IMG/VR virus record: IMGVR_UViG_3300042402_005492
Location: 1-56,508 of that record
Length of the DNA stretch: 56,508 bases
Direction: 5' to 3' (one strand)
Origin: a virus
Below, one piece after another: positions 14,237-55,027 of the stretch; within the stretch, counting starts at the first letter, position 1; the number at the start of each line of letters is the position of its first letter. Below the pieces are notes generated by a model. It had not been told where the DNA came from. It did not search any database and saw nothing but the letters and a program-made list of their open reading frames with translations. Made by a program: the position numbers and the translations under genes.

Positions 14237-17200
14237 ATGGCCAAAAGTAATTTATTAAGCGGAAGGGTAAGAGTTGTCAACCCCAAAGATGTTTCTAATG
14301 ATAGATACCAATTTTTAGACTTATCTCAGGCAGAACCTAATTTAGGAGTTCCTGATTTTAGTGCATCGCTTAGTGGAAGTCCTGCTATTGTAGTATCGGA
14401 TAGTGATGGTAATAGAGGGTTTGTACGAAGTTTAGATTTAGATAGAGTAACAGGTCAATTTACAGGATCTTTTACTGGTTCATTTACTGGAGATGGTAGT
14501 GAGTTAATCAACCTACCTGCAGCAACCTTTATAGCGAGTGGAAGTTCTACTGCATCGTTTGTAGAGGGTGATTTAGTTGTAAACACCAATACCACAATTT
14601 TAGGTAATTTAATTGTATCTCAATCTATAATTGCAGATCAACTTATAGTAAACCTAATTTCCTCATCAGTAATATACTCTTCTGGAAGTAACATTTTTGG
14701 TAATGAGGTTACTGATATACAACAATTCACAGGTTCGGTACAGATACAAACAGAACTTATTGCAAATTCAATAACTGCATCTTCTGCAACTGGTTCATTT
14801 ACTGGTTCATTTAGAGGTGATGGTAGTGGTTTATTTAATGTACCTGCAGAGGTAGCACCTTTGATTGCGAGTGGTAGTGTGACAGCATCTGTAAGTGATA
14901 CTTTAGGATTTGTAGTATCATCGAGTGTTAGTGGATCACTATTTTTCGGTGATGTAAGATTAGCAAGTGGTAGTGTATTCAGTGGAAGTGGTAGAGACCT
15001 TTTTAATATACCAAGATCTGCATTAACCGAAGATGCGCAGATTTCATCCTTAATTGCAAGTGGAAGTGTAACTGCTTCTGTAAGTGATAATTTTGGATTT
15101 GTGGTATCATCAAGTGCTAGTGGATCATTATTCTTTGGTGATGTAAGATTGGCTAGTGGGAGTGTGTTTAGTGGTAGTGGTAGAGACCTTTTTAACATAC
15201 CTCGTTCCGCTCTAACCGAAGATGCTCAGATATCTGCTCTCATAGCAAGTGGTAGTGTAACTGCATCTGTATCACCGGATAGAGGATTTGTGGTGGAAAG
15301 TGTTGACAATGGTTCTACCTTTAGTGGTAGTATATTTCTTTCTTCTGGAAGTTTCTTTAGTGGTAGTGGAGCTGGGTTATTTGATATCCCACAATCCGCA
15401 CTGTCACAAGAAGTATTCCGTATTGCAAGTGGAAGTATAACCGCTTCTGTTTCTCCAGATAGAGGATTTGTAGTAGAAAGTGAAGAAAGTGGCTCTACCT
15501 TTAGTGGGAGTATATTCCTTTCATCTGGTTCATTCTATTCTGGTAGTGGAGCAGGTTTATTTGATATTCCACAATCAGCGCTATCTCAGGAAGTATTTAG
15601 AATAGCAAGTGGGAGTATAACTGCATCCGTATCTCCTGATAGAGGATTTGTGGTAGAGAGTGTGGATATTGGTTCACATTTTACAGGTTCTGTAAATGTA
15701 TTCGGATCTGTAAGATCAACTGCTGGATTTTTTAGTGGTAGTGGTGCACAATTATTTGATATTCCACTATCCGCACTTGCTGAAGAAGTTACAGCAGCAA
15801 CTAAAATACAAAGTGGTAGTGTAACTGCTTCTGTATCTCCGGTTGATGGGTTTGTAGTAATTTCTCCTAATAGTGGATCATTATTCTTTGGAGATGTTAA
15901 ATTAGTAAGTGGTAGTGTATTTAGTGGTAGTGGAGCAGGTTTATTTGATATTCCAAAATCTGCTTTAGCTGATGATGTATTTATTTCTAATTTAATTGCA
16001 AGTGGAAGTATAACCGCTTCTGTTTCTCCAGATAGAGGATTTGTAGTAGAAAGTGAAGAAAGTGGTTCAACATTTAGTGGAAGTGTATTTCTTTCATCTG
16101 GAAGTTTCTTTAGCGGCAGTGGTGCTGGGTTATTTGATATCCCACAATCTGCATTATCTCAAGAAATATTCCGTATTACAAGTGGCAGTGTAACAGCATC
16201 TGTATCTCCAGAAAGAGGATTTGTGGTAGAGAGTGAAGAAAGTGGTTCAACATTTAGTGGTAGTATATTCTTATCATCTGGAAGTTTTATATCCGGTTCT
16301 GGTATAGGTTTATTTGATATTCCATTTTCTGCACTTTCGCAAGAATTGTTTAGAATTTCAAGTGGAAGTGTAACTGCTTCAGCATTACCTGATAGGGGAT
16401 TTGTGGTAGAGAGTGTGGATAGTGGTTCTACATTTAGTGGAAGCATATTCTTATCATCTGGTTCATTCTACTCCGGCAGTGGTGCGGGATTATTTGATAT
16501 CCCACAATCAGCATTGGCGTTTGAGATTAATCAAATAGCTAGTGGTAGTGTAACTGCATCCGTATCTCCTGTTGATGGATTTGTTGTAACATCGTTTGAT
16601 AGTGGTTCAAGCTTTTTTGGAGATGTAAAACTACAAACTGGTTCATTTAGTGGTAGTGGTGCTAATTTATTCGATATTCCTAGATCTGCATTATCGGAAG
16701 AAGTATTCCGTATTGCGAGTGGAAGTATAACTGCATCCGTATCTCCTGACAAAGGATTTTTGGTAGAGAGTGAAGAAAGTGGTTCTACCTTTAGTGGAAG
16801 TATATTTTTAAGTAGTGGTAGTTTTTATTCTGGCAGTGGAGCTGGTTTATTTGATATCCCACAATCCGCAATTACTGAAGATGCAATACGAATAGCAACA
16901 GGTTCTGTAACTGCATCGGTTGATGTTAATACTGGATTTGTAGTACAATCTCCAGATTTTGGTTCAACTATAAGTGGTAGTTTGGTAATAGATACAACAC
17001 ATACTAATTTCACACCAGATGTTACTACATTTGAGGTTAGTAATAATGGGTTCTCTGCGTATGTAATAAATGGGGAAGAAAATCCTACATTAACTCTTAC
17101 TGAAGGTGAAACATATACCTTTAACATAAACGCAAGTGGACATCCGTTTTGGATTAAGACTGTAAACTCAACTGGCACTGGAAACGCATATAATGATGGT

Positions 17201-20200
17201 GTAACTAATAATGGTACTGATAATGGAACTATAACATTTGTAGTTGCAATAGGAGCGCCTACTACACTTTACTACAATTGTCAGTTTCATTCATCTATGT
17301 TTGGAACAATTAACATAGTTGAAGCGAGTGAAGAGGCACCTGTTAATACTGGAGTAAAAATTATTGGAGATACTGAAATAGATGGTGATATAACAATTAC
17401 AGGATCACTTATTATATCGTCATCCAATACATTTAGAAACATTGGACCTGCACAATTTACTGGAAGTTTATTTATAACTGGTGGAAATGTAATAGTGGCA
17501 TCTGGAAGTTTCTTTAGTGGTAGTGGTGAGGGATTATTTGATATTCCAAGAGCTGCATTAGCGGATGATGCGTTAATTTCCAATATAATGTCAAGTGGAA
17601 GTGTAACTGCTTCAGTAAGTGATGAATTTGGATTTGTAGTCACCTCCGTGTTAAGTGGTTCGATATTTAGTGGTAGTGTATTCCTTTCATCTGGAAGTTT
17701 CTTTAGTGGTAGTGGTGAGAAATTAATCAATATACCTAGATCAGCTTTAACCGAAGATGCACTTATTTCAACAGAAATTAAATCTGGTTCAGTAACAGCA
17801 TCTGTATCTCCTGATTTTGGGTTTGTAGTTATATCCGCTGATAGTGGGTCTGAGTTTACAGGATCTGTAGATGTAAGTGGAAGTGTAACTGCGCAATTTT
17901 TCATAGGTGATGGTTCTCAATTAACAAATGTACAAGCAGCTGCAGCTCCTTTAATTGCAAGTGGTAGTGCAACTGCATCGGTAGCGAGTGGTGATACATT
18001 TGTAGTAACATCACCAGTGAGTGGTTCTCAATTTACAGGATCAATAAATGTAACAGGATCGATATCAGCATCTTTATTTCAAGGAGATGGTAGTGGATTA
18101 TTTAATCTAGACTTCTCAGAAATAACAATTGCTTCTCAATTGATAGCATCTGGTTCGGTAACTGCATCTACATCGCCTGACAGAGGATTTGTAGTTTTAT
18201 CCGCTGATAGTGGTTCGGAATTTACTGGATCAATTAATGTTAGTGGTAGTGTTACTGCATTTTCATTTATAGGTGATGGTTCTCAATTAACAAATGTTCA
18301 AGCAGCAGCTGCACCTTTGATTGCAAGTGGTAGTGCAACCGCATCCGTAGCAAGTGGTGATACATTTGTAGTAACATCACCAGTGAGTGGTTCTCAATTT
18401 ACGGGTTCAATAAGTGTATCTGGTTCAATAAATGTATCTGGTTCTGTAACAATTGTAGATGGTGTATATACCGGTGATGGTAGTGGACTGTTTAACATTC
18501 CACCTGAGGCGATTGAGAATTTGGAGTTAGATAGAATTTTGTCTGGTTCTGCATTAGCATTAATAACTACATCTTCATTTAATGTAAATGTGCCAATTAG
18601 TGGAGCTAGGTTTGATGGAGATGGTAGCGGATTATTTAATATCCCACCTGATGCTCTTGAAAATCTAGAATTAGATAGAATTGTAACTGGATCTGCACTC
18701 GCAGTTATTTCGGAGCCACGAGGATTGGAGGTAAATGTACCAACAACTATAACCGGTTCTTTAACTGTAAGTGGTGGATTATTTTTGACTGGAAGTAATT
18801 TAGTAGTTGGTAGTGGTAGTATAATAATTGGTGATGGTAGTGGTTTGACAAACATTACAATCGCTAACTTATCATTTGAGACCGAATTACTAAACTCTGG
18901 TTCAGCTGAAGCAAGAATTTCACCTAACTTAGGTTTGGTGACGAATGTTGGAGTTAATGTGGGTGGTGATTTAGTAGTAAGTGAAAGTATAACCGCACCA
19001 CAAATTATATCACCAAACTTCACAGGTTCTTTGAGTGGAACATATCGTTTTGATGGTGAAGGACCTACTGCATCCGCAGACTATAATTTATTACGATACG
19101 ATGAAAATAGAAATTATTACATTCCTCAACCAGAATTTTCTTTAACAGAAACTGTACCTTTTGAGAATGTATCGGATTTAACAATAACTCACAACTTGGG
19201 TATACGATATCCAGTTGTGCAGATATATGAAACAGGTTCTTTAGGAACTGAAGAGCAGATTATACCTTTAGCAGTTATACCATTAAATGAAAATAGTGTA
19301 AGAATTACATTTAGTGGATTGACAAGTGGACACGCCGTAATTGGTAGTGGGGGTTCTTTAATAAGTGGTACAATTCAAGGCGATAGAGTAATTGGGACTG
19401 TATTATCAGCATCTTACGCAATTAATGCGGGAACTGCTGAAAATGTTGCAGGATTTGACTCAGCATCACTATCGAATTTATCAGCATCTATTGCAGAATT
19501 GAATTTAGATGGATATGTGACAACAAACCAAACTTCTTCAATGAGTGTATTTGGAGCAGTAAGTGCTTCTTACGCATTAACTGCATCTTTTGCATTGAAC
19601 GCCGGTGGAACTGAATTATACATATTACATACGGGTTCAATAGTACAAACTGAAACTGCAAAAATAAACTTTAGTGGTAGTGGTGTAGATGTAATCGCAT
19701 CTGGTTCCGATGGAGTATTAGTAATCATAAATGGTGGCGGGGGAGAAGGTGGTACTTCGGATACCGCATCCTATATTGAGTCTATAAATGTAGATGGACC
19801 TTTGGGAATGGATAGTGTAGGATTTGCACTTACCGCATCTTTTGCATTAAACGCAGCGGGAGTTGATACTGCATCTTTCCTAAATGTAAATACAGATACC
19901 ACAATAAACGCATCATTAGTAATTAGTGGGAGTTTAGGAGTAAGTGGAAGTGTTTACTTTGGAGATATAGATACCGGTTCATTATCTCAAACTGTATTGG
20001 TTTGGGACGCTGCAACAAACAGAGTTGAAGCAAGAGATTTGGCTGAAGCTAGTGGTACTAGTGGAACTGCTGGAACAAGTGGAACTTCTGGAACAAGTGG
20101 TAGAGAAGGTGGTGGATTATTTGTTGTAATAAACGAAGGATTTAATTATGGAATAGAAGGGTATGCAGATACCACATTTCCAACCTTAACAGTAGTAAGA

Positions 20201-23200
20201 GGTGAATTATATTATTTCGATGTAAGTGGAGTTTCGGCATCACATCCTTTTGCTTTAAGATTAGCAACAGGTTCAAATGCAGAAGTACCTGGTACAATAA
20301 ATAATGATCCAATAAATGGTTTATATGGTAGTGGTTCACTAATAGAATATAGAGTACCGGATAGTGCACCTAATAGTATAGTATACCAATGTGCGGTTCA
20401 CTCTAATATGATTGGTATTATACTAATTGTAAATAAAAACGGAACATCGGGAACAAGTGGTACTTCTGGTACATCAGGTACAAGTGGTACTAATGGCACT
20501 TCGGGTACAAGTGGAACTTCAGGAACAAGTGGAACTTCAGGAACAAGTGGTACTTCTGGTACTTCTGGAACCAGTGGTACATCTGGAACCAGTGGTACAT
20601 CCGGAACTTCTGGAACTTCTGGAACAAGTGGTTCATCTGGCAGTAGCGGTACATCAGGTTCATCTGGAAGTAGTGGTTCATCTGGAAGTTCTGGAAGTAG
20701 TGGAACATCTGGAAGTAGTGGTTCATCTGGAAGTAGTGGTTCATCTGGAACAACAGGTTCTGCTGGAACATCGGGTTCATCTGGAACATCTGGTTCATCT
20801 GGAACATCTGGTAGTGGGGGATCATCTGGAAGCAGTGGTTCAAGTGGTTCTTCAGGAAGTAGTGGTTCGTCTGGTACAACTGGTTCAAGCGGCACATCCG
20901 GTAGTGGAGGAACATCTGGTTCTTCTGGCAGTGGAGGAACATCTGGAAGTAATGGTTCCGCTGGTACATCTGGTAGTGGGGGAACATCTGGTTCATCTGG
21001 TACAAGTGGTGTAAGTGGTTCAGCCGGTACTTCGGGTAGTAGCGGTACATCTGGAAGTAGAGGTACTTCAGGTAGTAGCGGTACATCTGGTAGAGATGGT
21101 TCATCTGGAAGTAGTGGTACATCTGGTAGAGATGGAACTTCGGGAACATCAGGTACAAGTGGAACTTCGGGAACAAGTGGAACTTCAGGAACAAGTGGTA
21201 CTTCAGGAACAAGTGGTACTTCAGGAACAAGTGGTACTTCAGGAACAAGTGGTACTTCTGGTACAAGTGGAAGCAGTGGAAGTAGTGGAACATCTGGTAC
21301 AAGTGGAAGTAGTGGAACAAGCGGAACAAGTGGAACAAGCGGTAGTGGTGGTACTTCTGGAACTTCTGGAAGTAGTGGTACATCTGGAACTACTGGAAGT
21401 AGTGGTACAAGTGGTACATCTGGAACAAGTGGTACATCTGGAACTTCTGGAAGTAGTGGTACAAGTGGTACATCTGGAACAAGTGGTACATCTGGAACTT
21501 CCGGAACGAGTGGAACATCTGGTATAGATGGTACATCTGGGACAAGCGGAACTTCGGGAACAAATGGAACATCTGGCTCAGCTGGAACTTCGGGTACAAG
21601 TGGTATAAGTGGTACTGATGGAACTTCTGGAACATCTGGTATAGATGGAACTTCGGGAACTTCGGGAACTTCGGGAACAAGTGGTACTTCTGGAACAAGT
21701 GGAACCTCGGGAACAAGTGGAACTTCGGGAACAAGTGGAACTGCTGGTTCATCTGGAACGAGTGGGATAGATGGAACTTCTGGAACTAGTGGAACTAGTG
21801 GAAGTAGTGGTACTTCTGGAACTAGTGGTACAAGCGGTACTTCTGGTTTAGATGGAACTTTCTTCGGTAGTAGTGGTACATCAGGAACAAGTGGCACTTC
21901 TGGTACAAGTGGAAGTAGTGGTACATCAGGAACTAGTGGTACAAGTGGTACATCTGGTTTAGATGGTACATTCTTTGGAACTAGCGGAACTAGCGGAACT
22001 AGCGGAACTAGTGGTACTTCTGGTACTTCTGGGACAAGTGGAACATCGGGAACAAGTGGTACTTCAGGTACAAGTGGAGTAGATGGAACATTCTTTGGTA
22101 GCAGTGGTTCATCGGGAACAAGTGGAACATCTGGTACAAGTGGTAGTAGTGGAACAAGTGGTACATCAGGAACAAGTGGAACTTCTGGTTTAGATGGTAC
22201 ATTCTTTGGTTCATCTGGAACAAGTGGTACTTCTGGAACATCTGGTACTAATGGAACTAGTGGAAGTTCGGGTACTAATGGTACTTCAGGAACATCTGGA
22301 ACAAGTGGAGTTGATGGTACATTCTTCGGTAGTAGTGGAACTACTGGCACGAGTGGTACAAGTGGAACTACTGGTACAAGTGGAACTACTGGTACGAGTG
22401 GTACTTCTGGGACAAGTGGAGTGGATGGAACCTTCTTTGGAAGTAGTGGAACTACTGGTACGAGTGGTACTTCTGGTGTAAGTGCTACTGATGGAACTAG
22501 TGGTACAAGTGGAACATCTGGTTTAGATGGTACTTTCTTCGGTAGTAGTGGTACAAGTGGAACTGCTGGAACAAGTGGTACTAATGGTACATCTGGTGTA
22601 AGTGGTACTGATGGTACATCCGGAACAAGTGGAACTTCTGGTTTAGATGGCACATTCTTTGGTTCATCTGGTACAAGTGGTACATCAGGAACTTCTGGAA
22701 CTGCTGGTATAAGTGGTACAAGTGGTACAAGTGGAAGTAGTGGAACTAGTGGATTAGATGGTACTTTCTTTGGTTCGTCTGGTACAAGTGGAACCGCGGG
22801 AACATCGGGCACTGCTGGAATTAGTGGAAGTAATGGAACAAGTGGTAGTAGTGGAACAAGTGGTACATCTGGTTTAGATGGTACATTCTTTGGAAGTAGT
22901 GGAAGTAGTGGAACTAGTGGAAGCAATGGTACTAGTGGAATTAGTGGTACATCAGGAACTTCTGGACTAGGTACAAGTGGAACAAGTGGTAGAGATGGTA
23001 CATTTTTCGGAAGTAGTGGTTCATCTGGAATTAGTGGAAGTAGTGGAAGTAGTGGGGTTAGTGGCACTTCGGGAACATCTGGTGTAGGTACAAGTGGTAC
23101 TTCTGGATTTTTACTACTATCTGGAACTACTGATAACGGAGTATTAACATATATCAATTCATCAGGACAAGGACAGGTTGAGTCAACCCTAACTTTTGAT

Positions 23201-23563
23201 GGTACTATTTTATCAGTAACTGGGCATGTTGCACCGACTACATTTAGAGAAGTTCACTCTGCATTAGGTAGTGGAGGAAGTTTTACTATAAATCTCGCTA
23301 CCGCAAATAACTTTAGTAGAACTGTAACTGGTGGTGGAACAGTGACTGTTGCATTTAGTAACCCACCTTCTGGTAGAGCATTTGGATTTACTTTAGCATT
23401 AACAGATGGTGGTTCCGCTACAATTCAGTGGCCAGCTGGTGTTAGATACGCGGATGGTACTGCACCTATTTTGACCTCAAGTGGAACGGATGTATTGACA
23501 TTCTACACATTTGATGCAGGAAGTACTTATTATGGATTTTTAGTTGGACGAAATATGAGTTAA
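14237..23563 (+). CDS. Giant fibre protein with cupredoxin-like and collagen-like regions (3108 aa)
   Basis: The longest protein in the window. Residues ~75-200 contain FTGSFTGSFTGDGSELINLP and the SSGSNIFG...QFTGS motif seen in many phage fibres. Then come about 20 copies of a ~60-residue unit, (I/L)ASGSVTASVSPDRGFVV...SGSGAGLFDIPQSAL (nt 14861-19015). A cupredoxin-like domain interrupts the twelfth copy (nt 17080-17330), and a second lies at nt 20161-20430. A ~890-residue Gly-Thr-Ser/Gly-Ser-Ser tract (nt 20441-23110) follows, broken 11 times by DGTFFG. The last ~150 residues form a beta-rich tip ending YYGFLVGRNMS. This is probably a long trimeric fibre with a collagen-like shaft. A 919-residue frame on the opposite strand is only a composition shadow. 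Confidence 0.8.
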   Translation: MAKSNLLSGRVRVVNPKDVSNDRYQFLDLSQAEPNLGVPDFSASLSGSPAIVVSDSDGNRGFVRSLDLDRVTGQFTGSFTGSFTGDGSELINLPAATFIASGSSTASFVEGDLVVNTNTTILGNLIVSQSIIADQLIVNLISSSVIYSSGSNIFGNEVTDIQQFTGSVQIQTELIANSITASSATGSFTGSFRGDGSGLFNVPAEVAPLIASGSVTASVSDTLGFVVSSSVSGSLFFGDVRLASGSVFSGSGRDLFNIPRSALTEDAQISSLIASGSVTASVSDNFGFVVSSSASGSLFFGDVRLASGSVFSGSGRDLFNIPRSALTEDAQISALIASGSVTASVSPDRGFVVESVDNGSTFSGSIFLSSGSFFSGSGAGLFDIPQSALSQEVFRIASGSITASVSPDRGFVVESEESGSTFSGSIFLSSGSFYSGSGAGLFDIPQSALSQEVFRIASGSITASVSPDRGFVVESVDIGSHFTGSVNVFGSVRSTAGFFSGSGAQLFDIPLSALAEEVTAATKIQSGSVTASVSPVDGFVVISPNSGSLFFGDVKLVSGSVFSGSGAGLFDIPKSALADDVFISNLIASGSITASVSPDRGFVVESEESGSTFSGSVFLSSGSFFSGSGAGLFDIPQSALSQEIFRITSGSVTASVSPERGFVVESEESGSTFSGSIFLSSGSFISGSGIGLFDIPFSALSQELFRISSGSVTASALPDRGFVVESVDSGSTFSGSIFLSSGSFYSGSGAGLFDIPQSALAFEINQIASGSVTASVSPVDGFVVTSFDSGSSFFGDVKLQTGSFSGSGANLFDIPRSALSEEVFRIASGSITASVSPDKGFLVESEESGSTFSGSIFLSSGSFYSGSGAGLFDIPQSAITEDAIRIATGSVTASVDVNTGFVVQSPDFGSTISGSLVIDTTHTNFTPDVTTFEVSNNGFSAYVINGEENPTLTLTEGETYTFNINASGHPFWIKTVNSTGTGNAYNDGVTNNGTDNGTITFVVAIGAPTTLYYNCQFHSSMFGTINIVEASEEAPVNTGVKIIGDTEIDGDITITGSLIISSSNTFRNIGPAQFTGSLFITGGNVIVASGSFFSGSGEGLFDIPRAALADDALISNIMSSGSVTASVSDEFGFVVTSVLSGSIFSGSVFLSSGSFFSGSGEKLINIPRSALTEDALISTEIKSGSVTASVSPDFGFVVISADSGSEFTGSVDVSGSVTAQFFIGDGSQLTNVQAAAAPLIASGSATASVASGDTFVVTSPVSGSQFTGSINVTGSISASLFQGDGSGLFNLDFSEITIASQLIASGSVTASTSPDRGFVVLSADSGSEFTGSINVSGSVTAFSFIGDGSQLTNVQAAAAPLIASGSATASVASGDTFVVTSPVSGSQFTGSISVSGSINVSGSVTIVDGVYTGDGSGLFNIPPEAIENLELDRILSGSALALITTSSFNVNVPISGARFDGDGSGLFNIPPDALENLELDRIVTGSALAVISEPRGLEVNVPTTITGSLTVSGGLFLTGSNLVVGSGSIIIGDGSGLTNITIANLSFETELLNSGSAEARISPNLGLVTNVGVNVGGDLVVSESITAPQIISPNFTGSLSGTYRFDGEGPTASADYNLLRYDENRNYYIPQPEFSLTETVPFENVSDLTITHNLGIRYPVVQIYETGSLGTEEQIIPLAVIPLNENSVRITFSGLTSGHAVIGSGGSLISGTIQGDRVIGTVLSASYAINAGTAENVAGFDSASLSNLSASIAELNLDGYVTTNQTSSMSVFGAVSASYALTASFALNAGGTELYILHTGSIVQTETAKINFSGSGVDVIASGSDGVLVIINGGGGEGGTSDTASYIESINVDGPLGMDSVGFALTASFALNAAGVDTASFLNVNTDTTINASLVISGSLGVSGSVYFGDIDTGSLSQTVLVWDAATNRVEARDLAEASGTSGTAGTSGTSGTSGREGGGLFVVINEGFNYGIEGYADTTFPTLTVVRGELYYFDVSGVSASHPFALRLATGSNAEVPGTINNDPINGLYGSGSLIEYRVPDSAPNSIVYQCAVHSNMIGIILIVNKNGTSGTSGTSGTSGTSGTNGTSGTSGTSGTSGTSGTSGTSGTSGTSGTSGTSGTSGTSGTSGTSGSSGSSGTSGSSGSSGSSGSSGSSGTSGSSGSSGSSGSSGTTGSAGTSGSSGTSGSSGTSGSGGSSGSSGSSGSSGSSGSSGTTGSSGTSGSGGTSGSSGSGGTSGSNGSAGTSGSGGTSGSSGTSGVSGSAGTSGSSGTSGSRGTSGSSGTSGRDGSSGSSGTSGRDGTSGTSGTSGTSGTSGTSGTSGTSGTSGTSGTSGTSGTSGTSGTSGSSGSSGTSGTSGSSGTSGTSGTSGSGGTSGTSGSSGTSGTTGSSGTSGTSGTSGTSGTSGSSGTSGTSGTSGTSGTSGTSGTSGIDGTSGTSGTSGTNGTSGSAGTSGTSGISGTDGTSGTSGIDGTSGTSGTSGTSGTSGTSGTSGTSGTSGTSGTAGSSGTSGIDGTSGTSGTSGSSGTSGTSGTSGTSGLDGTFFGSSGTSGTSGTSGTSGSSGTSGTSGTSGTSGLDGTFFGTSGTSGTSGTSGTSGTSGTSGTSGTSGTSGTSGVDGTFFGSSGSSGTSGTSGTSGSSGTSGTSGTSGTSGLDGTFFGSSGTSGTSGTSGTNGTSGSSGTNGTSGTSGTSGVDGTFFGSSGTTGTSGTSGTTGTSGTTGTSGTSGTSGVDGTFFGSSGTTGTSGTSGVSATDGTSGTSGTSGLDGTFFGSSGTSGTAGTSGTNGTSGVSGTDGTSGTSGTSGLDGTFFGSSGTSGTSGTSGTAGISGTSGTSGSSGTSGLDGTFFGSSGTSGTAGTSGTAGISGSNGTSGSSGTSGTSGLDGTFFGSSGSSGTSGSNGTSGISGTSGTSGLGTSGTSGRDGTFFGSSGSSGISGSSGSSGVSGTSGTSGVGTSGTSGFLLLSGTTDNGVLTYINSSGQGQVESTLTFDGTILSVTGHVAPTTFREVHSALGSGGSFTINLATANNFSRTVTGGGTVTVAFSNPPSGRAFGFTLALTDGGSATIQWPAGVRYADGTAPILTSSGTDVLTFYTFDAGSTYYGFLVGRNMS
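14861..19015 (+). repeat. About 20 copies of a GS-rich ~60-residue repeat
   Basis: Units contain SGSVTASVSPDRGFVVES, then GSTFSGSIFLSSGSF and SGSGAGLFDIPQSAL, with spacing close to 180 nt. The last copies drift to a shorter form with GDGSGLFNIPPEAI. Copies 3, 4, 7, 8 and 11 are nearly identical at protein level, which indicates recent tandem duplication or gene conversion. Confidence 0.85.
17080..17330 (+). other. Cupredoxin-like domain with intact type 1 copper ligand set
   Basis: The segment reads NPTLTLTEGETYTFNI, HPF (His codon at 17141), DGVTNNGTDNGT, then C-Q-F-H-S-S-M (Cys 17279, His 17288, Met 17297). His plus C-x2-H-x2-M is the ligand order of type 1 copper proteins and has amicyanin-like spacing. 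It sits inside a repeat unit of the fibre. Copper binding is inferred. Confidence 0.65.
20161..20430 (+). other. Second cupredoxin-like domain with intact ligand set
   Basis: The segment has FPTLTVVRGELYYFDV, SHPF (His codon at 20243), then C-A-V-H-S-N-M (Cys 20390, His 20399, Met 20408). The four putative ligands match the domain at 17080. It directly precedes the collagen-like shaft. Confidence 0.65.
20441..23110 (+). repeat. Collagen-like Gly-X-Y tract with regular breaks
   Basis: About 890 residues of GTS, GSS and related triplets. Eleven DGTFFG motifs add one residue and break the Gly-every-third register (G-x-x-x-G); GLG and GVG breaks occur near the end. At DNA level it is a degenerate 9-nt tandem array (GGNACNAGN-type) and so probably length-variable. 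Confidence 0.9.
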
Positions 23564-45449: not shown

Positions 45450-45581
45450 ATGGCAAAAGGTGGTAAGGGTGCTGTTGCATCTCAAAAGATTTCGTTTGGT
45501 AAGAAAAGAACTGGAGTAGCTAAAAAGTCCTACTCAAAATACGAAGAAAAACCAAAAAAATATAGAGGACAGGGTAGATAA
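45450..45581 (+). CDS. Small basic Lys/Gly-rich protein (43 aa)
   Basis: A 43-residue protein with about one third Lys and Arg. It begins MAKGGKGAVASQK and ends KKSYSKYEEKPKKYRGQGR. Short basic proteins with this ending occur in many phages and their function is unknown; nucleic acid binding or virion packaging is possible. It has its own late-type element upstream, and the next gene has a host-like promoter overlapping its stop region, so it forms a short unit of its own. Confidence 0.6.
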   Translation: MAKGGKGAVASQKISFGKKRTGVAKKSYSKYEEKPKKYRGQGR

Positions 45582-49861: not shown

Positions 49862-50695
49862 ATGCTACTTAAAAAAGGTGATAACAACGAAAATGTTAAG
49901 TTAATGCAACAAAAGCTGGGTATTGAACCAGCGGTAACTAATTTTGGACCTAAGACTGAAGAAGCAGTAAAGGCATTCCAAGCAAAAAATGGTCTTCCTG
50001 CTGATGGTGTTGTAGGACCGGCAACTTGGGCAAAGATTATGGGACAGGAAGCACCTAAAGCACAACCATCTGCTCCAATAGTACCAGTAGCGGGATTGAA
50101 ATTGGATAAACTAAAAGGACATATTCCTGATGCGGTAATCCAAATGATACCTGATACGGCTGCTAAGTTCCAAATCAACACTCCATTAAGATTGGCACAC
50201 TTCTTAGCACAATGTGGACACGAAAGTGGTGGATTTAAGGCAACACAAGAAAATCTAAACTATTCTGCTAAAGGATTAAATGGTATCTTCAAAAAGTATT
50301 TCCCAACTGAAGCAGCAGCAACTCCTTATGCAAGACAACCACAAAAGATTGCAAACAAAGTGTACGCAAATCGTATGAGTAATGGTGATGAAGCGAGTGG
50401 TGATGGGTATAAGTTTAGAGGTAGAGGATATATCCAATTGACTGGTAGAGCAAACTATACTTTGTTTGGAAAAGCAATCGGTGAAGATGTAACTGGAAAT
50501 CCAGATGTAGTAAGTGGTAAGTACGCATTACTTTCAGCAGCTTGGTTCTGGTCAAACAACGGATTGAATAAATTAGCAGATGGTGGTTCAACTGATACTG
50601 TAGTAACAACTATTACTAAAAGAGTAAATGGTGGAACTATTGGATTAGCTGACCGTATCAAACACTTTAAGGAGTATTACCATCTATTAGCCTAA
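49862..50695 (+). CDS. Endolysin: peptidoglycan-binding domain plus GH19
   Basis: A 277-residue protein. Residues 1-60 form a peptidoglycan-binding domain (LKKGDNNENVKLMQQKLGIE, FGPKTEEAVKAFQ). After a Pro/Ala linker, residues ~85-275 form a GH19 lysozyme/chitinase-like domain with AQCGHESGGF (catalytic Glu121 proposed) and YKFRGRGYIQLTGRANY. It cuts cell-wall glycan at the end of infection. There is no signal peptide, so a holin is needed to release it. The next gene encodes a one- or two-helix membrane protein that could contribute. Confidence 0.9.
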   Translation: MLLKKGDNNENVKLMQQKLGIEPAVTNFGPKTEEAVKAFQAKNGLPADGVVGPATWAKIMGQEAPKAQPSAPIVPVAGLKLDKLKGHIPDAVIQMIPDTAAKFQINTPLRLAHFLAQCGHESGGFKATQENLNYSAKGLNGIFKKYFPTEAAATPYARQPQKIANKVYANRMSNGDEASGDGYKFRGRGYIQLTGRANYTLFGKAIGEDVTGNPDVVSGKYALLSAAWFWSNNGLNKLADGGSTDTVVTTITKRVNGGTIGLADRIKHFKEYYHLLA

Positions 50696-50706
50696 GATAT
50701 ATTAGT

Positions 50707-50898
50707 ATGAAAAAGTTTTATAGAAGTGTTAGTGATAAAAAAATATTTGGAGTTTGTTCTGGATTAGCAAGATACACCAACACCGATGTTATTTTATGGA
50801 GATTGGGATTTGTGGCTGGATTATTTACACCACTACCTGTTATCATATTTTACTTTATAACCACTATTGTATCTGAGGGGATAGAATTTACAGATTAA
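50707..50898 (+). CDS. PspC-domain small membrane protein
   Basis: A 63-residue protein of the PspC type: KKFYRSVSDKKIFGVCSGLA, then Y-x-x-x-D-x-x-LWRLGFV and a hydrophobic stretch FVAGLFTPLPVIIFYFITTI. In bacteria PspC proteins sense or transmit envelope stress and pair with other Psp proteins. The phage copy has only the PspC core. It starts 11 nt after the endolysin stop, so it is probably co-transcribed, and ends before a terminator. It may act as a lysis regulator or as a way to manage host membrane damage; neither is proven. Confidence 0.8.
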   Translation: MKKFYRSVSDKKIFGVCSGLARYTNTDVILWRLGFVAGLFTPLPVIIFYFITTIVSEGIEFTD

Positions 50899-50923
50899 AA
50901 AAAAATAATTAAAAATAATTTAG

Positions 50924-50952
50924 AAAAGACTTGGAAATCCCAAGTCTTTTTT
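50924..50952 (+). terminator. Terminator fused to promoter, cassette 1
   Basis: AAAAGACTTGG pairs with CCAAGTCTTTT over 11 bp with a 5-nt loop, then TT. The 5' arm contains the TTG used as the -33 box of the downstream promoter. Confidence 0.85.
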
Positions 50953-50961
50953 GTATGTTTA
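50931..50961 (+). promoter_or_regulatory. Bacteroidota-type promoter, cassette 1
   Basis: TTG at 50931, exactly 20 nt, then TATGTTTA at 50954 (last base A instead of G). The -33 box lies in the terminator stem. A leader with AGAGTTCAACCCCTAAA (50972-50988) follows. Confidence 0.7.
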
Positions 50962-50971
50962 TACTGTGATA

Positions 50972-50988
50972 AGAGTTCAACCCCTAAA
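50972..50988 (+). promoter_or_regulatory. Conserved 5' leader element ACCCCTAAA, copy 1
   Basis: AGAGTTCAACCCCTAAA lies about 10 nt before the ATG at 50999. Closely matching copies occur in the other cassette leaders and a shorter core before 51882. It may be a translation signal or binding site. Confidence 0.5.
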
Positions 50989-50998
50989 CCCCTCAAAT

Positions 50999-51262
50999 AT
51001 GAACACAGTAAGATTTAACCGCCACGAATTATTCACCGCTGAATGGATGGATTACCACACCATCACCCTCCGAATGGTAGAAGATTTCCACCTCAATCAA
51101 AACGAAAGTTGGTACACCCCCCTATATAATATGTTATGTGGTGTGTGGGATGGATACCTTTACACCGAAATGTTGGAAACGGGTAAGCAAATGGGATTAC
51201 CTACCTACATTCTTCAACGAATTGCAAACACAATTCAATTTATTGGAACTAGCGCAAAATAA
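50999..51262 (+). CDS. Small accessory protein, cassette 1 (87 aa)
   Basis: An 87-residue protein; the start is set at the ATG at 50999 because the in-frame upstream codons overlap the promoter and lie before the expected transcript start. It is rich in Trp and Tyr: FNRHELFTAEWMDYHTITLR, then WYTPLYNMLCGVWDGYLYTE. No family was recognised. It forms a unit of its own between two terminator-promoter cassettes, as expected for an early or middle host-takeover gene. Confidence 0.55.
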   Translation: MNTVRFNRHELFTAEWMDYHTITLRMVEDFHLNQNESWYTPLYNMLCGVWDGYLYTEMLETGKQMGLPTYILQRIANTIQFIGTSAK

Positions 51263-51265
51263 TTA

Positions 51266-51296
51266 AAAAAAGACTTGGATATACGAAATCTTTTTT
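51266..51296 (+). terminator. Imperfect terminator-like hairpin, cassette 2
   Basis: AAAAAAGA and TCTTTTTT pair over 8 bp, with a mismatch and two more pairs inside and a 9-nt loop. Weaker than cassettes 1 and 3. The GACTTGG sequence that carries the TTG box is kept although its pairing partner is degraded. Confidence 0.5.
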
Positions 51297-51305
51297 GTAT
51301 GTTTG
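51275..51305 (+). promoter_or_regulatory. Bacteroidota-type promoter, cassette 2
   Basis: TTG at 51275, exactly 20 nt, then a perfect TATGTTTG at 51298. Promoter boxes are better conserved here than the hairpin, so the promoter seems to be under selection. Confidence 0.75.
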
Positions 51306-51314
51306 TAAAGTAAT

Positions 51315-51332
51315 GAGAGTTCAACCCCTAAA
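51315..51332 (+). promoter_or_regulatory. Conserved 5' leader element ACCCCTAAA, copy 2
   Basis: GAGAGTTCAACCCCTAAA, 13 nt before the ATG at 51346. Near-identical to copies 1 and 3. Confidence 0.5.
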
Positions 51333-51345
51333 TCCGTTAAATGTT

Positions 51346-51519
51346 ATGAGTTCTACTGAAAGAGTATCCAGATTTTTTGAGTTGCAGGAAATGATTAATT
51401 TCCAAATTGATTTGACTGGCGAGGCTAGTCTTGAAATGGCAGACGAATTAGAAGAGATTTCCAACTCTTTAAATTCAGATGAAATTGAATATATATTTGA
51501 AATGTTTTCTAATAACTAA
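51346..51519 (+). CDS. Small acidic accessory protein, cassette 2 (57 aa)
   Basis: A 57-residue, Glu-rich, mostly helical protein: STERVSRFFELQEMINFQID, then ASLEMADELEEISNSL. The start at 51346 is chosen because upstream in-frame codons fall inside the promoter and leader. The acidic helices suggest binding to a basic partner, but no family was recognised. A short leader with AACCCCCTTAG links it to the next gene. Confidence 0.5.
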   Translation: MSSTERVSRFFELQEMINFQIDLTGEASLEMADELEEISNSLNSDEIEYIFEMFSNN

Positions 51520-51530
51520 CCCCCTTAGAT

Positions 51531-51857
51531 ATGAATAAGTTAGAAGTAACCTCCGAATTGATTGGTAAATATATCAACCAAGTCCTTTATACTGATGTGA
51601 ATCCTGTTGGTAAAATCATCGGTATCAAAGGTAAAACAAAAGTTCTCATTCAGCCTATAATGGCCGGTCCCAATAAAGCTAAGATGGAATACATTCCTGG
51701 TGGATTTGCTGGACATTGTTACAACCAATCCGAACAAGAGTATGATTTTGTTGAGGTAGGTGAGCCATTCGAAGCTCCAATATCCAATTCATCCCTAAGA
51801 GGTAGAATGTGGAGAATAGGTGAAACACCGCGAAAGTATTATGATTACAACTTCTAA
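51531..51857 (+). CDS. Accessory protein of unknown function (108 aa)
   Basis: A 108-residue protein with a compact beta-rich look: VGKIIGIKGKTKVLIQPIMA, then a Gly/Pro turn and GFAGHCYNQSEQEYDFVEVG. The C-terminus is basic and aromatic (RMWRIGETPRKYYDYNF). No recognised family. It follows the 57-residue gene by 11 nt and is probably read from cassette 2. A small cytoplasmic regulator is possible. Confidence 0.5.
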   Translation: MNKLEVTSELIGKYINQVLYTDVNPVGKIIGIKGKTKVLIQPIMAGPNKAKMEYIPGGFAGHCYNQSEQEYDFVEVGEPFEAPISNSSLRGRMWRIGETPRKYYDYNF

Positions 51858-51864
51858 AATATAT

Positions 51865-51877
51865 AAAACCCCTAAAA
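51865..51877 (+). promoter_or_regulatory. ACCCCTAAA leader core before 51882
   Basis: AAAACCCCTAAAA lies 4 nt before the ATG at 51882 without an accompanying promoter, so the element seems linked to translation rather than transcription. Confidence 0.4.
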
Positions 51878-51881
51878 ACTT

Positions 51882-52133
51882 ATGGACATAGTAAATCAAT
51901 ATCAAAAAGCAGCAGAGGAATTTGCATTAGAATATGATGTAACCAATCCTCACATTATCCGAATTATTGCATCAGTAATGATGACAAGAGATGGTAAAGG
52001 ATTGCAAGGTGGGAGTTTCGTTCAATCGGTAGTAGATAACGATTTGTTCGGAGCAATCTCAAAAGCAGATAATGAGTGTTATAATCACTTAAAAGTAATA
52101 GTAGCAGCAAATCAGTATTCGTATCTAAACTAA
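51882..52133 (+). CDS. Accessory protein of unknown function (83 aa)
   Basis: An 83-residue helical protein: VNQYQKAAEEFALEYDV, then HIIRIIASVMMTRDGKGLQG and GGSFVQSVVDNDLFGAISKA. No known motif. The start is preceded by the ACCCCTAAA core. It is 6 nt from the next gene, part of the cassette 2 unit. Confidence 0.5.
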   Translation: MDIVNQYQKAAEEFALEYDVTNPHIIRIIASVMMTRDGKGLQGGSFVQSVVDNDLFGAISKADNECYNHLKVIVAANQYSYLN

Positions 52134-52139
52134 TAAAAA

Positions 52140-52322
52140 ATGAAAATGTTAAAAAAGTTCAGTATAAGTGAAATTCTTATCCTAGTAGTATGTGTAGTGT
52201 GTATTTTTGTAAGTGAATACATCTATTTGGTTCAAGGTGACCCATTTAAGGCAATCTTTATTGGATTGTGGCCTCCAACAATTTTGGGTTTGCTTAATTT
52301 TGTAAATATAAAACGAAGATAA
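52140..52322 (+). CDS. Two-helix membrane protein (60 aa)
   Basis: A 60-residue protein with two predicted membrane helices (ISEILILVVCVVCIFVSEYI and FKAIFIGLWPPTILGLLNFV) and a basic C-terminus (NIKRR). Size and layout resemble small phage membrane proteins such as holins or exclusion proteins. It starts 6 nt after the previous gene and is 1 nt from the next. Function is not assigned. Confidence 0.5.
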   Translation: MKMLKKFSISEILILVVCVVCIFVSEYIYLVQGDPFKAIFIGLWPPTILGLLNFVNIKRR

Positions 52323-52323
52323 A

Positions 52324-52695
52324 ATGGAAAATTTAGAGATTATAATTCTAACAACTATTGTATCCATATTATTTGTGGTTTTTTTCGTACTGATGTATAA
52401 AGAATTCTCAAAAATGGAAAAGGAAGAGTATACCTATAACCCTAATGTGAAACGATATGGTAGAGATGGTATTTACAATTTGTTGGAAAGATTATTTGAT
52501 GATGAAACGAAATCTAAATCTCAAAAGGCAAAATTGTTTAAGACAATCGATAGAACTATCGCAGATATGGAAAGTGATGGAATGTATTTTTCCGAAGATA
52601 TAAAGGAAAAGTTGGAAAAGGAAAGAGAAGAGTTGTTTTGCGAGTATAGTGGATTACCATCTCCCAAAGCATACGAAAGAGATGATCAACTATAA
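52324..52695 (+). CDS. Membrane-anchored charged protein (123 aa)
   Basis: A 123-residue protein with one N-terminal membrane helix (IIILTTIVSILFVVFFVLMY) followed by a charged cytoplasmic region rich in Lys and Glu. That region contains GRDGIYNLLERLFDDETKSK and EDIKEKLEKEREELFCEY. No family was recognised. The layout suggests an inner-membrane anchored scaffold; co-encoded with the two-helix protein, it may act at the membrane. Confidence 0.5.
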   Translation: MENLEIIILTTIVSILFVVFFVLMYKEFSKMEKEEYTYNPNVKRYGRDGIYNLLERLFDDETKSKSQKAKLFKTIDRTIADMESDGMYFSEDIKEKLEKEREELFCEYSGLPSPKAYERDDQL

Positions 52696-52707
52696 AACGG
52701 ATACCAA

Positions 52708-52938
52708 ATGGAATTTTTAACAGATATTGGAGTTGTGACATTAGAAACTGCTAAGCAGTTAAAAAGTGATGGATTTGATACTCCTACAAACTTTTACTTT
52801 GTGGACGAAAAATCAACTGAAAGTGATAGTGGTAAGTATTTACTACGGTGTGGAAAGGGTAGAGATAACCACAATCGAAAAGGTAGAGAGTTTTATTCAG
52901 CTCCATCTAGTGTAGAATTAGAAAGATGGAAAAAATAA
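52708..52938 (+). CDS. Small conserved protein, Bacteroidota-phage type (76 aa)
   Basis: A 76-residue protein: VTLETAKQLKSDGFDTPTNF, a short variable part, then FYSAPSSVELERWKK. The plan of an N-terminal A-x-x-LK-x-x-GF and a C-terminal SAP-x-x-x-E-x-x-W recurs in small proteins of Bacteroidota phages and mobile elements, whose function is unknown. It is the last gene before the third cassette. Confidence 0.55.
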   Translation: MEFLTDIGVVTLETAKQLKSDGFDTPTNFYFVDEKSTESDSGKYLLRCGKGRDNHNRKGREFYSAPSSVELERWKK

Positions 52939-52942
52939 AACA

Positions 52943-52972
52943 GAAAAGGCTTGTATTATTCAAGTCTTTTTC
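52943..52972 (+). terminator. Terminator fused to promoter, cassette 3
   Basis: AAAAGGCTTG pairs with CAAGTCTTTT over 10 bp with one G-U pair and a 7-nt loop, then T. The TTG of the next promoter lies in the 5' arm. Confidence 0.8.
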
Positions 52973-52981
52973 GTATGTTTG
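52951..52981 (+). promoter_or_regulatory. Bacteroidota-type promoter, cassette 3
   Basis: TTG at 52951, exactly 20 nt, then a perfect TATGTTTG at 52974. It would drive the nuclease-methyltransferase unit. Confidence 0.75.
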
Positions 52982-52990
52982 TAAGGTAGT

Positions 52991-53008
52991 GAGAGTTAAA
53001 CCCCTAAA
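52991..53008 (+). promoter_or_regulatory. Conserved 5' leader element ACCCCTAAA, copy 3
   Basis: GAGAGTTAAACCCCTAAA, 16 nt before the ATG at 53025. Confidence 0.5.
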
Positions 53009-53024
53009 ACGTTAAAACAAAAAT

Positions 53025-53597
53025 ATGAAAAATTTTAAAATCGAATACAATGTTAATAATGGTAAACAAATTGAATTAAGAACAATTGATTTATCTAAAG
53101 AGTTAAGTGTAGTTCAATTTGGTAAGCTTGGTTTTAAAAAAGTAGCTGATATGGTTTTAACCGATTCAAATAACATTGGATTGAAAATGATGTATAAAGA
53201 TTATATTTCAACAAAAGAATACAATGAACATTGTCATGGTGTTTATTTAATTGTTATCGATGGTAAAATTGTTAAAATCGGTGGAACTGAAACGGGTTTA
53301 GCAAAAAGATGGGGTTCTTACAATAATGGAACTGATAAAATTAGAAATGGCGCTGCGAACGGTTCTGTGACAAATTATTATGTTGCAACCGCACTTAAAG
53401 CCGCATTAAAAACTGGTCACTCAGTTGAATGGTATTATAAAAAAATGAATTACGAAACTAGAACTTTAAATTTATATGGTATAGAAATTACTGAAAATGT
53501 ATGTGTTGATGGAACATATAAGATGCATGAAAAAACACTATTGGAATTTTATAAAAATAAATCAAATAATTACCCAAAATTATCGGCTAATTCATAA
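53025..53597 (+). CDS. GIY-YIG-type nuclease, probable restriction endonuclease
   Basis: A 190-residue protein. GVY (72-74), VKIG (83-86), an Arg in LAKRWGSY (R95), Glu in MHEKTLLEFY (E169) and a late Asn (N189) follow the order of a GIY-YIG active site. The N-terminal ~60 residues lack known motifs. Small GIY-YIG enzymes include restriction enzymes such as Eco29kI-type and homing enzymes. Here the next two genes encode the halves of an adenine methyltransferase, so a restriction role is favoured. Gap to the next gene is 8 nt. The DNA is more AT-rich than its neighbours, which hints at transfer. Confidence 0.65.
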   Translation: MKNFKIEYNVNNGKQIELRTIDLSKELSVVQFGKLGFKKVADMVLTDSNNIGLKMMYKDYISTKEYNEHCHGVYLIVIDGKIVKIGGTETGLAKRWGSYNNGTDKIRNGAANGSVTNYYVATALKAALKTGHSVEWYYKKMNYETRTLNLYGIEITENVCVDGTYKMHEKTLLEFYKNKSNNYPKLSANS

Positions 53598-53605
53598 TTA
53601 TATAT

Positions 53606-54520
53606 ATGATAAAATTTGATGGTATTATTACCAACCCCCCTTATGCTGATTCATCCCATGCTGAACAGAAAAATACATTATGGAGAAAGTGGTTTACATT
53701 TGATAAATTAATTAAAGAGAATGGAGTTTTCGCTGAAATAATTCCATCATCTTGGATGGGTAGTCCGCCTTTGATAAAAGATAATTTTTTAGATGAAAAT
53801 TTAAAAATTTCTAAAAATATAACTCACATAAATTTAGATGAATGTGGTAAATATTTTAAAGGAGTTGGTCAAAAATTTTCTTATTTTGTTTACACTAAAG
53901 ATGAATATAAAAACGAAACAAATTTAGTGGTAAGAAATATTGATGGCAGTATTGAGTCATTTACCGAAAACTTAAATAATGTTATTTTTGATGTATTTCC
54001 AAGAGACTTAAGCCCACTCGCAATATCTATTTTAAATAAAACAATTGTAAATACAAAACCTATTGGTATACTGAATACAACGGTTTGTCATGGAAACAAT
54101 AAACATTTATGGAAACATAATCCTCAAGATGAGTTTATACATGCGGTTGAAAAAACTCCAAATAAAACTATTTTTTATAAAAAACAACATCCGCATCAAG
54201 GTATCCCTAAAATTATAATACCAACAACTACTTATTATAGATCAATGTATTATACTGAAAACGGTACATCTCAAAGTTTTTGTTATTATAATCTTAAAGA
54301 TGGCGAAGAACGAGATATAGTATTAAATAACTTAAATAATAAACTATTTGATTATATCAACGAATGTTTTAGATATTCAAATTGGAATTCTGTAAATCTT
54401 TTAAAAAAATTACCCACATTACCATTAAATATTCAATTAACTGATAGCGAAATATATGAGTTTTTTAACTTAACTGAGGATGAAATTTCACATATAAATA
54501 AAATAATCTTATGGAGATAG
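53606..54520 (+). CDS. Adenine methyltransferase, catalytic/target-recognition half
   Basis: A 304-residue protein that begins FDGIITNPPYAD: the catalytic motif IV N-P-P-Y is at residues 10-13. Then FTFDKLIKENGVFAEIIPSS and a ~200-residue variable region likely to be the target recognition domain. The AdoMet-binding motif I is absent; it is in the next gene. In usual gamma-class N6-adenine methyltransferases motif I comes first, then IV. Here the halves are separate and in reversed order. The stop overlaps the next ATG by 10 nt, which suggests that both halves are made together and must combine to be active. Recognised by motif; function is inferred. Confidence 0.7.
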   Translation: MIKFDGIITNPPYADSSHAEQKNTLWRKWFTFDKLIKENGVFAEIIPSSWMGSPPLIKDNFLDENLKISKNITHINLDECGKYFKGVGQKFSYFVYTKDEYKNETNLVVRNIDGSIESFTENLNNVIFDVFPRDLSPLAISILNKTIVNTKPIGILNTTVCHGNNKHLWKHNPQDEFIHAVEKTPNKTIFYKKQHPHQGIPKIIIPTTTYYRSMYYTENGTSQSFCYYNLKDGEERDIVLNNLNNKLFDYINECFRYSNWNSVNLLKKLPTLPLNIQLTDSEIYEFFNLTEDEISHINKIILWR

Positions 54521-54990
54521 CCGTTTATAAAAATTTTGTTCGTTCTTATGGGTATATGAGTGGTATTGCTAGAAATAAATCTCGACAAGACTCTACACAA
54601 GAATACTTTACTTGTCAAGAATTTGTAGAAGAGGTACTAGATAAAGTTGAATACTCAAAAAAAGACATTTTTACAAATGCTGATAATAAACTATTAGATA
54701 ATGCAGCGGGAGATGGGCAATTTTTAACGGAAGTTGTAATTCGTAAAATGGAAAGAAGCCATTGTACCTTAGAACAAGCACTTTCTACAACCTATGGGGT
54801 AGAGTTAATGGAAGATAATGTAAAGTTGTGTAAAGAAAGATTAGCAGGTCCAAATCCAACACAAGAAATTTTGGATATTATTGATAGAAATATAGTATGT
54901 GCAGACGCTTTAACTTATCATTATCGGTTTGATGGCACTCATCCAACAGCTTCACTAACCGAATTAAAAAAAGATGAATTCTTTACTTAA
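54511..54990 (+). CDS. Adenine methyltransferase, AdoMet-binding half
   Basis: A 159-residue protein. FTCQEFVEEVLDKV (33-46) resembles motif X, LLDNAAGDGQFLTEVV (61-76) is motif I with a D-x-x-x-G-D-G core, YGVELMEDN (95-103) is motif II, and VCADAL (129-134) is motif III. It ends soon after motif III, just where motif IV would follow; that motif opens the preceding gene. It has no N-P-P-Y of its own. The likely product is one subunit of a two-part methyltransferase. An alternative start at 54556 (MSGIARNKS) is also plausible. This is an N-half gene placed downstream of its own C-half. Confidence 0.7.
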   Translation: MEIAVYKNFVRSYGYMSGIARNKSRQDSTQEYFTCQEFVEEVLDKVEYSKKDIFTNADNKLLDNAAGDGQFLTEVVIRKMERSHCTLEQALSTTYGVELMEDNVKLCKERLAGPNPTQEILDIIDRNIVCADALTYHYRFDGTHPTASLTELKKDEFFT

Positions 54991-54995
54991 AAACC

Positions 54996-55027
54996 TTTGG
55001 AATTGTGAATTATTTTTAGTATCTTTG
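54996..55027 (+). promoter_or_regulatory. Bacteroidota-type promoter before gp32-like gene
   Basis: TTTG at 54996, a 20-nt spacer after TTG, then TATCTTTG at 55020-55027. Its spacer carries the same GGAATTGTG as the promoter before the DNA polymerase (45586), so the two may be co-regulated. Confidence 0.75.

Follow-up and report, generated by a model that had tools for sequence, protein, structure and literature searches.

Three cassette copies in the small-gene block

The sequence considered here, referred to as the window, is a 56,508-nt stretch of the viral record IMGVR_UViG_3300042402_005492 of the IMG/VR database (positions 1 to 56,508). It carries T4-like and other myovirus genes, including those for a tail sheath, a baseplate hub, a gp32-like single-strand binding protein and a DNA polymerase-like protein, and the host of the phage is probably a Flavobacterium-like bacterium. 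A block of small genes, most of them without a known family, separates the endolysin and PspC-like genes (49862-50898) from the gp32-like gene (55136), and is interrupted by three copies of a putative terminator-promoter-leader cassette. The features of this block described below are on the + strand.

A preliminary description of this region had proposed a recurring unit, consisting of a hairpin with a T-run whose 5' arm contains the TTG box of a promoter, a -7 box at constant distance and a shared leader. The three units are indeed present, with the TTG at 50931, 51275 and 52951, followed after exactly 20 nt by a -7 box at 50954 (TATGTTTA), 51298 (TATGTTTG) and 52974 (TATGTTTG); the spacing TTG-N20-TATGTTT(G/A) is identical in all three. 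The leader GAGAGTTNAACCCCTAAA is matched at 50971 (with one mismatch, AAGAGTT), 51315 and 52991, where shuffled sequences average 0.22 matches and never give three. Its general form is (A/G)AGAGTT(C/A)AACCCCTAAA, at a fixed distance from the -7 box and ahead of the start codon in every copy. When the rest of the genome was searched with a 64-column weight matrix only these three copies were detected in the 56.5-kb record, with no fourth, and the next-best score was ~90 bits lower. The leader was also considered as a structured RNA, which was rejected as it folds no better than shuffles, and an Rfam scan of 45.0-56.5 kb gave no credible match.

In copy 1 the terminator-like hairpin (50921-50953; 14 pairs, a 5-nt loop and T6) follows the PspC-like gene and encloses the TTG; the -7 element occupies 50954-50961 and the leader AAGAGTTCAACCCCTAAACCCCTCAAAT runs to the ATG (50971-50998) of the accessory gene F1 (50999-51262, 87 aa, no family). 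Copy 3 begins 5 nt past the F12 stop codon, with its hairpin at 52943-52971, again enclosing the TTG, the -7 element at 52974-52981 and the leader GAGAGTTAAACCCCTAAA... to the ATG at 52991-53024. Both hairpins are terminator-like by a consensus scan, and in both the layout is that of an intrinsic terminator, in which a stable hairpin just past a stop codon is followed at once by a T-run. The predicted stabilities are -16.6 kcal/mol for copy 1 (z -5.7) and -12.2 kcal/mol for copy 3 (z -4.9), and none of 200 shuffles was as stable in either case. Copy 2 (hairpin 51268-51297, -7 element 51298-51305, leader GAGAGTTCAACCCCTAAA... to the ATG 51315-51345) had been described as having lost its pairing while retaining both boxes and the leader. 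The TTG, -7 box and leader are kept, but the pairing is weakened rather than absent, as 10 of 12 stem positions can still pair in the register common to the copies; this common-register stem is weak, and a different fold wins when the copy is folded in isolation (-8.6). The first gene after copy 2 is the accessory gene F8 (51346-51519, 57 aa).

Conservation of the hairpin and its nesting in other phages

When other genomes were searched for the cassette, 12 further viral records were found to carry it, most of them related to the window, and the strict form was found in none of the bacterial genome contigs. Three of the viral records (G004, G005 and G006) share almost nothing else with the window, and G006 has a portal of PHROG 33693, unlike the T4-type PHROG 213 portal of the record G001, and its head protease differs as well; the cassette also occurs in a second, non-T4 phage lineage, comprising these three records.

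The stem shows covariation. Across 12 gap-free aligned sites 85% of the cells are paired and nine cells have changed on both sides; neither level was reached in any of 500 shuffles, and sliding the pairing partner reduced pairing to at most 66%. An independent pattern, AAAAGNNTTGN7CAANNCTTTTTNNTANNTTT, prescribes the outer stem, with two stem positions (NN/NN) unconstrained. It recovered 40 distinct sites in viral contigs, most of which begin shortly past a stop codon and have TATATTT or TATCTTT as the -7 box, and the free positions pair in 37 of the 40 (shuffle mean 15.1, maximum 23). The same pattern was found in 0 of 296 bacterial genomes of the phylum and 1 of 150 of the Flavobacterium genus, counts that are unnormalised for the share of Bacteroidota phages among the viral contigs. 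Strict nested units, in which the -33 box lies within the hairpin, number two in the window, four in the related record G002, two in G001 and eight in the cultured phage immuto described below, with 0 to 0.7 in shuffles and none in 800 kb of host DNA from two flavobacterial genomes. By a looser measure, a significant hairpin is present at 16 of 50 independent clade promoters against 6 of 84 in-gene controls (p=0.0005). From these patterns the hairpin is judged to be under selection. AT-rich promoters containing a T-tract may sometimes resemble terminators, the -18 region being T-rich anyway, but chance resemblance of this kind is extremely improbable given the covariation, the 37 of 40 free-position pairings, the lack of strict units in the 800 kb of host DNA and the 0 to 0.2 units per shuffled phage genome set against 2, 4, 2 and 8. 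When 48 clade promoters were aligned on one fixed dyad centre no across-sequence covariation signal was seen, and the stem is therefore a property of a subset of the promoters and not of every one.

BLAST of the cassette against phage records gave weak matches only, one of which pointed to Flavobacterium phage immuto (MW353176), a cultured phage of known host with T4-like gp20 and gp23. It has 11 intergenic sites at which a TTG or TAG lies within a hairpin and is followed after 19-21 nt by TATATTTA-type boxes. The small genes at 67.5-71.3 kb are nearly all provided with a unit each, and the leader in these units, TTTAGGTATCAATAATTAAAAC, is nearly invariant; about half of these units have a strong hairpin, the stems vary and two sites have CUUCGG-type loops. 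These tandem cassettes resemble those of the window in their nesting, their spacing, the provision of one cassette per small gene and the T4-like phage that carries them, whereas the stems differ, the -7 box is TATATTTA and the leader, GGTATCAATAATTAAAAC, is unrelated. The nesting is therefore independent of the particular stem or leader of the window. The start codon annotated for immuto35A_114, at 64455 of MW353176.1, coincides with the TTG of a -33 box within a terminator hairpin and is therefore probably wrong.

The variation among stems also bears on whether the palindrome might instead be a DNA operator, at which a phage or host protein would bind the dyad over the -33 region and regulate the promoter, with no terminator involved. 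A short TTTGG...CAAA dyad persists near this position in many clade promoters that are poor in hairpins, and a stable stem is absent from some cassettes; both would suit an operator. However, the stem sequence varies freely among sites while the pairing persists, which is unlike a sequence-specific operator; the stems come after stop codons, with A-runs before them and T-runs at the end, and two of the immuto stems are capped by loops of the CUUCGG type, which is a feature of RNA. We consider an operator unlikely.

Promoter type and proposed working of the cassette

Promoters read by the Bacteroidota sigma factor sigma-ABfr have TTTG and TANNTTTG boxes ~20 nt apart and an AT-rich -18 region (PMC6847099). 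Those of Flavobacterium johnsoniae have AT-rich motifs near -18 and -28 and a -7 consensus of TAHHTTTG, with G at -9 nearly absent (PMC6847099). Transcripts from sigma-ABfr promoters are expected to start 4-5 nt past the -7 box. The window promoters are similar in their box sequences, the gap of ~20 nt and the AT-rich -18 region; copies 2 and 3 combine a TTTG/TTG at -33 with TANNTTTG at -7, and copy 1 has TATGTTTA in that place. They differ in having G at -9 and a hairpin that overlaps the -33 box.

The favoured reading, to which we give a probability of about 0.77, is that the cassette is a terminator with a sigma-ABfr-type promoter nested in it, and that recombination at such units exchanges accessory genes. 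What the sequences themselves show is the anatomy of the units, the covariation of their stems, their enrichment in phages, their placement and the exchange of genes at their borders. Each copy would be a bifunctional element of ~60-80 bp, placed where one gene of a T4-like Bacteroidota phage gives way to the next in the same orientation. On passing out of the upstream gene, RNA polymerase would transcribe the inverted repeat, and the RNA hairpin and U-tract would end the transcript. Read as a promoter, the same duplex would provide TTG(G) of the 5' hairpin arm as the -33 box, the T-tract as part of the AT-rich -18 region and TATGTTTG as the -7 element, so that a new transcript, possibly an early one, would begin ~5 nt downstream and carry the shared leader into the next gene. 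As the unit is self-contained and repeated, the genes between two units would keep both their expression and their insulation. Homologous recombination, acting between units or between their C-rich leaders, could swap, add or delete the genes enclosed.

Several observations weigh against this. A G is present at -9 in all three window copies, contrary to the F. johnsoniae rule (most other nested sites comply), and the -7 box of copy 1 ends in TTTA. The hairpin is weak or missing at copy 2 and in several relatives (G003, G008 and G004-G006), and termination is thus not kept everywhere; the stems are A+T-rich, with three to four G-C pairs in the window, which makes the efficiency of termination uncertain. 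Hairpins were found at 4 of 27 host promoters, and the phage excess over the host is not significant in this small sample (p=0.11). Finally, the weaker dyads at other clade promoters could mean that the palindrome has another role.

Because of the G at -9 the window promoters are labelled only sigma-ABfr-like, and this atypical base could reflect a modified polymerase or a weak promoter. Should a phage-modified polymerase read the -7-like element in place of the host sigma-ABfr holoenzyme, the conservation spanning -33 to the leader would mark a phage-specific promoter, for example a middle one; the terminator half of the cassette could stand unchanged. In favour of this, the G at -9 and the A at -5 of copy 1 deviate from the host consensus, the TATG variant is rare (3 of 50 clade promoters), and conservation extends into the leader. 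Consensus TATATTTG/TATCTTTG boxes do however occur with the same nesting at most viral sites and in G002 and G001, and a modified polymerase is a tentative explanation that we think doubtful.

The clade promoters, sampled as 50 intergenic promoters (L055-L133 and G001-G012), have an extended consensus of approximately ATTTGGAAATTTCAAAAATTTTTCG TATATTTG TA, which is much sharper than that of the host sample, and more than 90% of the 50 have a G immediately 5' of the -7 element. The nearest sequenced isolate by gp32, at 53% identity, is Microcystis phage Mel-JY01 (PP395634.1, L134-L137), for which the recorded host is cyanobacterial. Its genome encodes ribosomal protein S21 and has ~17 intergenic TTG-N20-TANNTTTG sites in which the extended motif is of the Bacteroidota type; the true host may be a Bacteroidota bacterium within the culture.

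After releasing a transcript at an intrinsic terminator, bacterial polymerase often remains on the DNA and is able to begin anew from a promoter close by (PMC6978322, PMC11347151). The nesting of terminator and promoter might then act as a relay, in which polymerase releases its RNA at the T-tract, stays bound and reinitiates at the adjacent -7 element. This is a speculative addition and probably not how the cassette works; if it were true, a row of cassettes would pass the same polymerases from gene to gene while each gene remained a separate, exchangeable transcript. Nested units would in any event be a clean system in which to ask whether a terminated polymerase passes to an overlapping promoter.

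Gene exchange at cassette borders and comparison with known systems

The preliminary description had linked the cassette to gains and losses of genes, and at sequence level these do fall at cassette borders in two comparisons, the window with G002 and G001 with G008. Homology between the window and G002, at ~92% identity, breaks off at 53017, at the end of the copy 3 leader, and is picked up again at 54975, shortly ahead of the next promoter. The exchanged block of the window (53025-54990) contains an endonuclease-like gene (53025), an Eco57I-like methyltransferase gene (53606) and a gene at 54511, and G002 has the unrelated F17 and F18 in its place; its right border is the ordinary promoter of the gp32-like gene (54997-55027), with TTTGG..TATCTTTG boxes and no hairpin. 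G002 also has one extra gene, u71, directly behind copy 2, where it precedes F8, and another, F4, at the C-rich leader of F10. In the second comparison G001 and G008 share only ~680 bp at the DNA level, namely the cassette and two genes, arranged as cassette-F7-F6 in one record and permuted to cassette-F6-cassette-F7 in the other; the break is at the leader. What lies 5' of F6 varies by record (the cassette, F7 or a third gene), and the short leader is the same in each case. No tRNA genes that could act as exchange points were found in the window.

At least eight first genes are preceded by the window cassette, namely F1, F8, F6, F7, F14, the endonuclease-like gene, u71 and F17. Duplication of whole units together with homologous first genes was rejected, since no between-family similarity was found at E below 0.05. 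A related possibility is that the units are recent duplicates or gene-conversion products which spread with their genes, the functional unit being only promoter and leader and the hairpin a passenger. The copies are highly similar, both within the window and between it and G002, and few parts are as well conserved as the leader, as this would predict. The downstream genes are nevertheless non-homologous, changes in the stems are compensatory, and immuto and other viruses show the same nesting with stems and leaders of their own; we regard recent duplication as unlikely.

The C-rich module of the leader, AAACCCCTnAAATATG, lies 5' of the cassette genes and of internal genes of the block and of no structural gene. 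CCCC occurs within 30 nt of the start codon at 5 of 40 window starts, all inside the small-gene block. The leader is restricted to small accessory genes, including genes without a promoter such as F9. C-rich leader sites were noted at 50989-50998, 51518-51530 (the start-codon leader of F9) and 51866-51881 (AAACCCCTAAAAACTT, that of the internal gene F10) in the window, at 8809, 9105 and 9403 in L071 and at 10290 in G008. It may be a phage-specific translation signal, or merely a shared junction for gene recombination. The cassette could likewise be a dedicated insertion device, as first proposed, but ordinary recombination at shared cassettes accounts for the junctions equally well.

The promoter early stem-loops (PeSLs) of T4-like myoviruses were reportedly described by Arbiol et al. 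in 2010 and Comeau et al. in 2014. According to one published account, they are present in many copies in gene-shuffling regions and are implicated in gene exchange between T4 relatives (PMC4503421). By function the T4 PeSL is the closest known kind of element: the window cassette likewise appears to join promoter and stem-loop in one composite unit (in copies 1 and 3, and weakly in copy 2), and multiple copies border accessory genes that are shuffled among relatives of a T4-like phage. The analogy drawn in the preliminary description is thus apt in function, but the architecture differs, as the parts are nested here and adjacent at the T4 sites examined. Two 49-50 kb stretches of T4 contain four strong terminators, which lie upstream of and beside early promoters and are separate from them, whereas in the window the terminator stem encloses the -33 box and the promoter spacer includes the T-tract. 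The boxes are TTG-N20-TATGTTT(G/A) and not of the sigma-70 TTGACA/TATAAT early type, and a conserved C-rich leader is attached. Since promoter type and stem position differ, the cassette is regarded as a PeSL-like variant and not as a T4 PeSL; no description of the nested form was found in the literature searched, which was a limited selection. Lambdoid phage morons are accessory genes with their own promoter and terminator (PMC1524935). The accessory genes of the window also appear to come with both, but in this T4-like genome a single segment is shared by the putative terminator of the upstream gene and the promoter of the downstream one.

On this interpretation promoter-terminator shuffling cassettes would extend from the T4 relatives of enterobacteria to Bacteroidota phages, where the promoter is of an unlike type and the arrangement, nested and more compact, varies in stem and leader from phage to phage. 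The cassette would mark the entry and exit points of accessory genes, including nuclease and methyltransferase genes, and could serve as a simple sequence signature for locating them. It may also offer natural single-piece terminator-promoters for Flavobacterium genetics.

Three further features of the window were noted. The gene adjoining the endolysin (50707-50898) encodes a PspC-domain protein of 63 residues (E 1e-18). An unlisted basic protein of 43 residues (MAKGGKGAVASQKISFGKKRTGVAKKSYSKYEEKPKKYRGQGR) is encoded at 45450-45581, with 88% DNA identity to the otherwise unrelated phage G006. On the - strand a 919-codon open frame (20398-23157) lies antisense within the 3108-codon gene at 14237-23563, and is probably a side effect of repetitive coding sequence.

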